Positions 46,852-49,587 of a DNA stretch of 64,000 bases are shown piece by piece (positions within the stretch are counted from its first letter, which is position 1; each line of letters starts with the position of its first letter). The stretch lies in assembly GCF_003129605.1 (NCBI RefSeq), contig NZ_QBDX01000001.1:434001-498000 (forward strand), read 5' to 3'. Below the pieces are notes generated by a model. It searched no databases. It saw nothing but the letters and a program-made list of their open reading frames with translations, and was not told the origin of the DNA. Source of the stretch: Hyphobacterium indicum. GTDB taxonomy: Bacteria > Pseudomonadota > Alphaproteobacteria > Caulobacterales > Maricaulaceae. Both the position numbers and the translations under genes were made by a program.

Positions 46852-47547
46852 TTACGCCACGTCCTTCTGCTCGACCGGGTCGCGCAGCACATAGCCCCGT
46901 CCCCAGACGGTTTCGATGTGATGCTGTCCGCCAGTGGCAGCCGCCAGTTTCTTGCGCAGCTTGCAGATGAAGACGTCAATAATCTTCAATTCCGGCTCGT
47001 CCATCCCGCCATAAAGGTGGTTCAGGAACATTTCCTTGGTCAGCGTATTGCCCTTGCGCAGCGAGAGCAGTTCCAGCATCTGGTATTCCTTGCCGGTGAG
47101 GTGAACGCGATGTCCGTCCACTTCCACGGTCTTGGCGTCCAGATTGACGCCGATATCGCCGGTCTTGATGATCGACTGGGCATGACCTTTCGAGCGGCGG
47201 ACAATGGCGTGGATGCGCGCCACCATCTCGTCCTTGTGGAACGGCTTGGTCATGTAATCATCGGCGCCGCAGCCGAGGCCGCGCACCTTGTTGTCGATGT
47301 CGGCATTGCCGGTGAGGATGAGGATCGGCGTGTCGATCTTCGCCATCCGCAATGTCTTCAGCACGTCAAAGCCGGGCATGTCCGGCAAATTCAGGTCCAG
47401 AAGAATGATGTCGTAATCATAGAGTTTGCCGAGATCGACACCCTCTTCCCCCAGATCCGTCGTATAGACATTGAAGCCTTCCGACTTGAGCATCAGATCG
47501 ATGGATTGCGCTGTCGCGCGATCGTCTTCAATCAGCAAAACCCGCAT
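46852..47547 (-). CDS. ctrA: cell cycle response regulator CtrA
   Basis: 231 residues. It has a receiver domain with phospho-acceptor Asp51 ([12 protein letters not shown]) and Asp7/Asp8, and an OmpR/PhoB-type winged helix DNA-binding domain ending with [11 protein letters not shown]. The [30 protein letters not shown] segment is the CtrA fingerprint. CtrA is the master regulator of the alphaproteobacterial cell cycle: it silences the origin and drives flagellar, pilus and division genes. The C-terminus is DVA; in Caulobacter a C-terminal AA is the ClpXP signal, so the last residues are slightly different. It is convergent with cheR and divergent from a secreted orphan. Confidence 0.97.
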
Positions 47548-47766
47548 GGATATTCTCCGCCCCGCTAGTCCGGCGAATCACTTCGCCGTTGGTTCCATGG
47601 TTAACGTGCTTCGGACGGTAGATGCAAAGCGTTAACGAAAGTTAACCGCGAATTGACTCAAATAGCAGAATCGAGTCCGTCCTCGATTCGTTCCGCTTTG
47701 ATTTTTGACTCGGCTTTTTGCCTGTCTATGCATAAGGTTGAGTCAGATCAGCGGAGGCAATGCGCC
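47548..47766. promoter_or_regulatory. ctrA/secreted-orphan shared promoter region with GANTC cluster
   Basis: Seven GANTC sites lie here: 47575, 47655, 47668, 47673, 47685, 47707 and 47740 (first base of each). About 0.7 are expected by chance in a region of this length. Six of them fall within 90 bp. GTTAAC occurs at 47600-47605, 47631-47636 and 47641-47646; the last two give TTAA-N6-TTAA, one base short of the CtrA-box spacing. In Caulobacter, ctrA is controlled by CcrM methylation of GANTC plus GcrA, and by CtrA itself. The design is probably shared here (inference). Confidence 0.75.
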
Positions 47767-49587
47767 ATGCAGCTCGGGCTCGGCACGCTCATCGCGTTAA
47801 TATTACCTGCAGCTGTTTTTGCGCAAGGCACCGTTAGTTGGTCGATTTTGCCCAATGCGCGAACCGGTGCGCCAAACGAAGAACTGACCTTTCTTGCGAC
47901 CATTTCCAATTCCCGCGATGTGACGATGACCTGCCAGCCGCGCTTTGGCGGCTTCTTCACGCGTCCGGGTGGTGTGAGTGGCCGGGCGCAATTCTTCACC
48001 TATGACGGCACCACTCTCGGTGATACGGCGAACGCCTTTGTCGATATCCCGGCTCAGTCGAGCCAGAATTATGTGGTGGTACTGACGGTGGACCGCGCCT
48101 ATAGCGGTAATGTCCTGATCCCGATCCGTTGCACTGATCCTGACAATGTCATCCATGATTTGCGCCGCATCCCGCTGGTCAACGATTTCCAGGTTGTGAT
48201 CGAGGCCGGGAACCCGCCCGATATTGTCATGATCGGTGATACGCTTTCAAATGATGGTGTCGCCCGAGTCGGAGAGACAGGGCCGCGCGCGGCACTGATG
48301 ACACTGGCAGCGGTCAACATTGGCGGCCCAGCAACGGACTTCATTGTCGTGCCGGAAGTTACTGGTTTCTCGACGCTCCAGGCGGGTTACCGCCCCACGA
48401 TTTGCGAAACCGACGCCAATGGCCATTGCATCGGCCCGGAAGATACCTTTGTGAGCGTCGCGGATTGGCCCACGAATGAGGTGCGGCTCTTCGCCGTGCG
48501 CCTGCGTGTGCCGCCGCAGAACGGCGTGCCCAATTATCCTGATCAGCTGCGCTTGCGGGTGCGGGCAGCGCCCGAGCCGGACACAACCGGGCTTGATCGG
48601 CCTGCTGATTTCGCGGGCGACTGGAACCAGCTTCTGGATGCCATGTTCGGCGGGTACAGCTCTGGCGTGGAAGCCAGGGCACAGCCTCCGTTTGACGATA
48701 TTATTGCGCCCGTTCAGCAATGCGTCACACAGGTCAATGGTGATACCGGCGGCGAGTTTGCGCGATCCGGCGGTTTCCTTCTGGTGTCGCAGGAACAGGG
48801 CAGTGGCGGACCGGTCGAACTGGACGGATTTCTGGAATTCGCCGACGGCCAGTTCCAGACGGGGGTCATTGGTTTCTTCCGTCCCGTTCAGCTGGAATTT
48901 CCGTCCGAATCCGGTGCTGGCACAGTCAGTATTGCGGGCGGCGGCACCGGCACGGTTCAGGAAACCGATCGGGCATTTCCCGCGACATTGATCGCGCAGA
49001 ACGGCGATCGCGGTGTCAGAATTCACTGGGACGCGCAGGGCGGCGGGCTGGTCGATATTGCACAGGCCGGGTCAACGCGATGTGCCGGGGCACCGCCTAT
49101 TCCGGATATGCCGGCAGAAGAACCGAACCAGGCCCGAAGACTGCTGGCCGGCTTCTTCGGCGGTGGGACGGATAATGAAGTTCACGCGACCCCGGCGATC
49201 AACGGTGAGTCCCCGGTCGTGTTAGGCGAAGAAAATGGTGTCGGCTTTGTCGCAATCGGCACGGGCGACGCGCCGGCCCTGCTGGATGGCTTTGTGCCGC
49301 ACGAGCCGCCCGTCAGCGGTCTGACCCTGACACAGATCGATCTCATGTATGACGCATCGCTCGGCGCGTTGCGAATTGCCAATCAGGCCGGTTATGGCGG
49401 GGTATTTGTTCCGGCAGATGTTGATACCAGTGGTAATACACCTGCGTTTCGCTGCGGCGTCATGAGTTTCACGGGAACAATCCCGACCCGCGACACGCCC
49501 GGCTCCAACCAGGATGGCGGCGTAACGATCCTTCTTCCCCTCGACGAGGACCCGGATGAGCTCGGCGACGGAGAGTGCATTCAGTAA
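47767..49587 (+). CDS. orphan secreted protein divergent from ctrA
   Basis: About 606 residues. ATG 47767 (MQLGLGTLIALILPAAVFAQG) gives a textbook signal peptide, and GGAGG at 47753-47757 supports it; an earlier in-frame start does not add a signal. The mature chain is beta-rich, with TVSWSILPNARTGAPNEELTFLATISNS at its start, and mostly without Cys clusters. Two similar-looking halves (around 190-330 and 390-600) are possible. I recognise no family and no catalytic motif. It shares the GANTC-rich region with ctrA and could be cell-cycle regulated. It is followed by a zf-TFIIB gene 89 bp later. Confidence 0.85.
   Translation: MQLGLGTLIALILPAAVFAQGTVSWSILPNARTGAPNEELTFLATISNSRDVTMTCQPRFGGFFTRPGGVSGRAQFFTYDGTTLGDTANAFVDIPAQSSQNYVVVLTVDRAYSGNVLIPIRCTDPDNVIHDLRRIPLVNDFQVVIEAGNPPDIVMIGDTLSNDGVARVGETGPRAALMTLAAVNIGGPATDFIVVPEVTGFSTLQAGYRPTICETDANGHCIGPEDTFVSVADWPTNEVRLFAVRLRVPPQNGVPNYPDQLRLRVRAAPEPDTTGLDRPADFAGDWNQLLDAMFGGYSSGVEARAQPPFDDIIAPVQQCVTQVNGDTGGEFARSGGFLLVSQEQGSGGPVELDGFLEFADGQFQTGVIGFFRPVQLEFPSESGAGTVSIAGGGTGTVQETDRAFPATLIAQNGDRGVRIHWDAQGGGLVDIAQAGSTRCAGAPPIPDMPAEEPNQARRLLAGFFGGGTDNEVHATPAINGESPVVLGEENGVGFVAIGTGDAPALLDGFVPHEPPVSGLTLTQIDLMYDASLGALRIANQAGYGGVFVPADVDTSGNTPAFRCGVMSFTGTIPTRDTPGSNQDGGVTILLPLDEDPDELGDGECIQ

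Follow-up and report, generated by a model that had tools for sequence, protein, structure and literature searches.

A GANTC cluster upstream of ctrA in Hyphobacterium indicum that probably belongs to a conserved ctrA regulatory region

Control of ctrA by GcrA and CcrM is a known class of mechanism, and methylation control of this gene is known mainly from the single P1 site of Caulobacter crescentus, where mutation has had little effect (PMC3667746, PMC3973325). The activity of Caulobacter ctrAP1 was reported as unchanged after mutation of its GANTC (PMC3667746), and a ctrA promoter that could not be methylated was described as giving no abnormal phenotype (PMC3973325). In that region a GANTC at −28 or −29 of P1 lies 14-15 bp before a TTAA half-site at −14, and a full CtrA box stands at −39 of P2 and −14 of P3 (PMC4287350); a second GANTC follows the P2 start (PMC4287350, PMC3667746). 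An extended GcrA motif, YGAKTCK, is given for Caulobacter, with no such preference in Brevundimonas (PMC7987155). Multiplicity of GANTC upstream of ctrA is already known as well: within 300 bp upstream, at least one site was counted, and up to six in Caulobacterales or five in Sphingomonadales (PMC8116508). Where that account deals with multi-site ctrA regions it gives numbers, and describes no fixed spacing, clade split or leader hairpin. Two further systems are close to the present case. The mipZ promoter carries two juxtaposed GANTC sites that are bound by GcrA (PMC3667746), and the 5′ UTR of Caulobacter ctrA P2 is bound by the ncRNA CcnA, in a system where the ribosome site is predicted to lie in a stem and a GGGG is contacted (PMC8959179).

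We analysed a window of 64,000 nucleotides from H. indicum, in which a gap of just under 220 bp separates ctrA from a divergent gene for a secreted protein. The gap holds seven GANTC sites. The first-pass annotation had placed seven sites at 47575-47744 and six of them within 90 bp; both counts were confirmed, the last six (47655-47744) spanning exactly 90 bp. The features of the gap are as follows.

46852..47547, minus strand: ctrA, a response regulator of 231 aa; start codon (ATG) at 47545-47547
47571..47588, minus strand: leader hairpin CGGCGAA-GTGA-TTCGCCG in ctrA sense, ctrA −41 to −24, with covarying arms; contains the GANTC at 47575
47575..47579, unstranded: GANTC site 1, ctrA −32; TGATTCG in ctrA sense
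47597..47604, minus strand: CtrA half-site TTAACCAT, 41 bp downstream of the CtrA box start
47615..47620, minus strand: TACCGT, putative −10 of ctrA P2, judged from spacing
47632..47645, minus strand: CtrA box TTAACTTTCGTTAA (TTAA-N6-TTAA), at predicted −39 of P2 and −14 of P1
47653..47678, minus strand: tri-GANTC element GGACTCGATTC-N8-GAGTCAA, separated from the CtrA box by 7 bp
47655..47659, unstranded: GANTC site 2, ctrA −112; predicted −28 of P1
47668..47672, unstranded: GANTC site 3, ctrA −125; matches YGAKTCK
47673..47677, unstranded: GANTC site 4, ctrA −130; abuts site 3
47685..47689, unstranded: GANTC site 5, ctrA −142, at the edge of the conserved block; matches YGAKTCK on the other strand
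47705..47732, plus strand: possible secreted-gene promoter, TTGACT (47705-47710), 16 bp, TATGCA (47727-47732), from the sequence and its likeness in the congener G007
47707..47711, unstranded: GANTC site 6, ctrA −164; overlaps the possible −35 of the secreted gene
47740..47744, unstranded: GANTC site 7, ctrA −197; near the predicted transcript start of the secreted gene
47767..49587, plus strand: divergent secreted protein gene, 606 aa, ATG at 47767; no Pfam match

The placing of a GANTC and a CtrA box resembles that of the Caulobacter promoters, and the N6 spacing of the box is found also at Caulobacter podJ (PMC4287350). Unlike Caulobacter ctrA, however, this locus has five ctrA sites where Caulobacter has two, a fixed element holds three of the five, and one CtrA box would serve both putative promoters, with the TTAACCAT half-site downstream of the predicted P2 −10. 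Sites 3 and 4 are adjacent like those of mipZ, but here a third site follows at 8 bp, and a CtrA box stands 7 bp from the element. The ctrA leader is structured, as is the one bound by CcnA, but the covarying stem here is upstream of the ribosome site and includes the TTCG of TGATTCG. We consider it probable, although well short of certain, that the cluster is the regulatory region of ctrA, with two overlapping promoters, one CtrA box and a GcrA/CcrM/CtrA switch, and that the divergent gene adds a minor part of its own.

GANTC is rare in this DNA. The window contains 117 sites against 325 expected from shuffles, and a genome sample of 464 kb, consisting of the window and twenty 20-kb stretches and amounting to about 17% of the 2.79-Mb genome, contains 982, or 1 per 472 bp. 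At that rate about 0.36 sites are expected per 170 bp. The densest 170-bp stretch in the sample is the cluster in the ctrA gap. The runner-up holds six sites in 170 bp, including GAATCGATTC (L223:17481 onwards, G000:C4:557481, where G000 is the window genome); it lies upstream of a gene for a MotA/TolQ-like membrane protein and an OmpA-like gene, both names being read from translations.

Both proteins of the proposed CcrM methylation and GcrA control are encoded in this genome. CcrM was found at L010 1423-2505, with PF01555 at 211 bits and the RAMA domain PF18755 at 68 bits, and GcrA as the single match to PF07750 (182 bits, E 1.4e-53). Lack of conservation of the sites at orthologous promoters had been named in advance as one of the findings that would tell against the proposal, and on this point it holds. 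We searched 99 family genomes and obtained a CtrA match in 98, at 82-100% identity (cut at contig ends in G019 and G071). At least one GANTC was present within 250 bp upstream of ctrA in all 98, with a mean of 3.34 per 250 bp versus 0.31 in DNA further upstream. Seven family genomes hold seven sites upstream of ctrA, a top count that the window genome therefore shares with others. Of 80 named CtrA loci, mostly from other groups but including members of this family, 77 had at least one site within 300 bp, the maximum being nine; one of these loci had only 216 bp.

The five sites at −142, −130, −125, −112 and −32 of ctrA are kept in the window genome and its four closest congeners (G007, G045, G054 and G064), and those at −164 and −197 (47707 and 47740) occur only in the window genome and G007 among these five. 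In the block from −147 to −108, none of the 20 GANTC columns varies among the five subclade genomes, compared with 8 of the remaining 20 (Fisher p 0.003). When the comparison is extended to −147 to −1, where little varies overall, the counts are 0 of 25 and 11 of 122 (p 0.21). Beyond −147 the likeness between the five genomes is lost (12 of 13 columns vary between −160 and −148), and the conserved ctrA block therefore ends at the outermost of the five ctrA sites.

From this block, all 22 selected genomes, representing four genera, share GGACTCGATTC-N8-GAGTCAA-N6-GTTAAC without exception. The only criterion of selection was a GANTC at three offsets from the CtrA box (−32, −27 and −14); the central base of each site (C, T and G), the G in front and the AA behind had not been selected for and are invariant nonetheless. 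The N8 drifts, its top base being common to 7-18 of the 22 genomes. By genus, the element is present in 10 of 10 genomes of g5, 6 of 6 of g14, 5 of 8 of g1 and the single genome of g13; the ctrA upstream layout of g5 is also that of an Oceanicaulis MAG (L112), which carries GACTCGATTC with identical GANTC spacing. Literature searches, none of them worded for its own letters, returned no description of the fixed element. As a general promoter module the adjacent pair GACTCGATTC was rejected, since it occurs once in the 2.79-Mb genome and its reversed control twice.

The family shows two layouts of these sites. In 51 of 56 sister-clade genomes a GANTC lies about 17-18 bp into the box region, between the predicted P2 −35 and −10, and the tri-site element is absent; judged from these letters, P1 and P2 look merged in that clade. 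A GANTC in the spacer mostly goes with an absence of sites from the 80 bp upstream of the box (45 of 52 genomes), and its absence with at least one site there (42 of 46); 7 of the 98 rows behind these counts were anchored by hand and 2 by a fallback rule, the box search having missed or misplaced them. The ctrA tree shows two clades, neither of them strongly supported: clade A (38 rows, support 86/98) takes in 37 of the 39 genomes with at least two upstream sites, and its sister (56 rows, support 81/93) takes in 51 of the 52 with a spacer site. The spacer state changes four times on the tree and yields 3-4 independent pairs (sign test, median p 1). With so few changes, the trade-off is essentially one split between clades and does not amount to statistical proof.

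The seven sites are not one unit shared by both divergent promoters, as had been suggested: five are ctrA's, and two are common to one congener only. Nor is the secreted gene quite an orphan, having relatives in all 8 genomes of the genus and four matches in the window genome (five in G007). The family (L191-L210) has open frames of 426-1063 aa with a common N-terminal region of about 270 residues; the window protein itself had no Pfam match. We checked all 20 secreted-gene matches. The three beside ctrA share its cluster, two of them with sites 6 and 7, and the other 17 have few GANTC in the 150 bp upstream (none in 10, one in 7), although their starts were assigned by rule and may be wrong in places, and these 17 are for the most part distant relatives. 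As each of the 17 relatives checked elsewhere has at most one upstream site, the cluster belongs to ctrA, and its reading as a property of the secreted gene was rejected. In G045 a 50%-identical copy at the same place lacks sites 47707 and 47740.

A TTGACTC overlapping a possible −35 of the secreted gene had also been noted. This heptamer occurs twice, at 47653 and 47705, and the suggestion stands for the second copy, which by inspection has a fitting −10-like stretch, but not for the first. At 47653 no −10 was seen at 16-18 bp, and GTCAA is kept there in 32 of 38 clade-A genomes. The distal sites flank TTGACT-N16-TATGCA, and G007 has a similar sequence beside ctrA, before an 88%-identical copy of the secreted gene, which is one comparison. 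A consensus scan reported no plus-strand promoter in the gap, the TTGACT-N16-TATGCA pair included.

The ATG-proximal site is the most widely kept. In 92 of 98 family genomes a GANTC stands over 35 bp downstream from the start of the CtrA box, and 83 of 98 have TGATTCG. In clade A, where 37 of 38 genomes have GATTC, the mean uninterrupted stem around it was 6.73 pairs, versus 4.99 when 5′ arms were swapped across genera (0/2000); swaps within genera, on 29 distinct rows, gave 6.72 versus 5.55 (0/5000). G-T pairs were allowed in the stem counts, which suits RNA; the hairpin may alternatively be a DNA cruciform. Genera g5, g14 and g7 each pass the within-genus test alone (0/5000), and in g9 alone the hairpin is no better than the swaps (1327/5000). 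In the other 44 genomes pairing of the GATTCG arm is not above that of swapped arms (1878/2000 as good). A hairpin directly upstream of GATTCG was found in these others (42 distinct rows), with 6.29 pairs versus 5.15 in shuffles (0/200), or 5.74 versus 4.70 for halves (0/500), the shuffles being mononucleotide and any hairpin in 32 bases being accepted. The covarying ctrA leader hairpin thus comes in two layouts, with TGATTCG in the loop and 3′ arm or just downstream (L071, L072, L079, L105, L109 and others). A MAFFT alignment of 25 chosen leaders was ungapped despite differing loop lengths. Rfam gave no match at E up to 1 in 47400-47900, and literature searches found no description of a covarying ctrA leader hairpin, the nearest account being that of CcnA at the Caulobacter leader.

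Several other explanations of the sites were weighed. That a low-GC gap free of coding constraint simply accumulates GANTC would agree with the scarcity of the motif in coding DNA and its enrichment in intergenic DNA of alphaproteobacteria with CcrM (PMC3973325), and dinucleotide shuffles of the 220-bp gap do average about 1.3 sites. Among 20,000 such shuffles, however, none reached seven and 12 reached six, and one of 20,000 mononucleotide shuffles reached seven; the positions, moreover, are conserved over four genera. Chance is very improbable for the cluster as a whole, and for the five ctrA sites we reject it on the shuffles, the 464-kb sample and the positional conservation; for the distal sites 47707 and 47740, conserved in one comparison only, it may still apply. 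The inverted repeat GAATCGAG-GACGGA-CTCGATTC (47668-47689) could be read as a terminator that shields ctrA from upstream read-through, and the consensus scan does give one terminator-like site here, directed towards ctrA, with 0.3 expected in shuffles. Its T run is poor, and the base at −136 disrupts the arm in two congeners (G007 and G054) and reduces a pair to G-T in G045, while the GANTCs stay; with the arm thus affected in three of the four closest congeners, we give this reading hardly any credence. A better case can be made for a different sequence-specific regulator that reads GGACTCGATTC/GAGTCAA, methylated or not, with GANTC secondary. It would explain the invariant middle bases and the flanking G and AA, which methylation alone does not need, and the single occurrence of GACTCGATTC in the genome, by which the pair is not a general GcrA module. 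At the place of site 2, all 10 g9 genomes have [GCT][AG]GTCAA and no GANTC, with GTCAA at −12 to −8 of the CtrA box, so that the letters there are kept for something besides methylation. Yet three genomes of the window's own genus (G024, G074 and G082) lack the element and keep 3-5 GANTC within 80 bp upstream of the box, as if number and not letters were conserved, and Caulobacter GcrA is said to have extended letter preferences (PMC7987155), which is compatible with fixed letters. We regard such a regulator as unlikely.

For site 1 a competing explanation is that it is kept only as part of an RNA leader hairpin and ribosome-site region, the CcrM site being a by-product. The arms covary around an invariant GATTC in both kinds of swap, and the site may for that reason be kept for RNA as well. 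Against RNA as the sole cause, GATTCG is near-invariant outside clade A and g7 although arm pairing there is no better than in swaps, g9 alone fails the within-genus test, and the letters TGATTCG are those of the extended GcrA motif. We lean against this explanation, while granting that it is quite possible.

We return to the reading of the cluster as a ctrA regulatory region with two overlapping promoters. The sequence itself gives the sites with their spacing and conservation, the genes for CcrM and GcrA, and the covarying hairpin, and from these we infer start sites, GcrA binding, methylation and an order of events. If the CtrA box is placed as in Caulobacter (PMC4287350), P1 would start near 47631, with the GANTC 47655 at about −28 and the box at −14, and P2 near 47606, with the same box at −39. 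The GANTC-to-TTAA distance is 14 bp in the 22 element genomes, among 93 with an anchored box. In the full box, GTTAAC is conserved in both promoter sets and the second half reads TTAA versus TTTA, a comparison that omitted nine rows whose box was missed or misplaced. The spacing from box to half-site is 41-43 in 89 of 93 genomes with a detected pair, and no pair was detected in 5. TA at the place of the P2 −10 is kept in the spacer-GANTC genomes, g1 and g9, and not in g5, g14 and g15. The consensus scan gave no promoter at the putative P1 or P2; its only one was TAGACA-N16-AAAAAT on the minus strand (47728-47701, 9/12), directed towards ctrA and outside the conserved block. Alphaproteobacterial promoters often depart from the consensus.

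After fork passage, GcrA would read the methylated or hemimethylated tri-site GANTC and recruit RNA polymerase to P1; newly made CtrA~P would then bind the box, turning P1 off and P2 on. The additional GANTCs (47668 and 47673 at fixed spacing, and 47685) may form a multi-site target for GcrA or CcrM. GANTC 47575 would lie in the transcribed leader, within a separately selected hairpin that probably acts on ctrA mRNA. With respect to the extended GcrA motif, 47655 (TGAGTCA) does not fit YGAKTCK, and 47668, 47685 (on the other strand) and 47575 do.

The first-pass annotation had further proposed that the dense cluster could make transcription hypersensitive to hemimethylation after the fork has passed. 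In the window genome, which consists of four contigs, and in the closed congener G007, hemE and parB are 11 kb apart. G007 has hemE/parB at 2.30-2.31 Mb of 2.69 Mb and ctrA at 0.249 Mb, a distance of about 0.63-0.64 Mb; with the origin taken from these markers and not from skew, ctrA is about 47-48% along the replichore and not near the origin. In this it differs from Caulobacter, where ctrA is origin-proximal (PMC8116508). A hemimethylated interval at such a mid-replichore position would be shorter than for an origin-proximal gene. Together with the weak effect of site mutation in Caulobacter, this leaves the strong form of the proposal unsupported, although it may still hold.

Three things appear to be new: the fixed element of three sites, the change of layout across a whole clade, and the covarying hairpin of the leader, which has letters in common with the most conserved GANTC. 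One may go further and see two undescribed devices here, a three-site methylation sensor locked to the CtrA box (in the sister clade, a single spacer GANTC) and a dual-code leader whose seven letters TGATTCG would serve at once as a methyl mark in DNA and within a selected RNA hairpin; we are doubtful of this stronger claim. If the dual-code leader is real, replication-timed marking and control of ctrA translation would constrain each other. The hairpin suggests that ctrA is also controlled at the level of its mRNA, for which our literature searches found no test in this family, and conservation of a GANTC alone is then no proof of an epigenetic role. The natural series, with one to seven sites and two clade layouts, provides a ready test of whether the number and place of sites set the timing of a master regulator.

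Some genomes depart from the two layouts. In G088 (L037) both are present, the three-site element together with a GANTC in the spacer of the CtrA-box promoter. In three g12 loci (L091, L093 and L096), from genomes of 1.8-2.0 Mb, ctrA lies on a long branch; the CtrA box has seemingly been lost there, and the two GANTC sites and the TTAAC half-site are kept.
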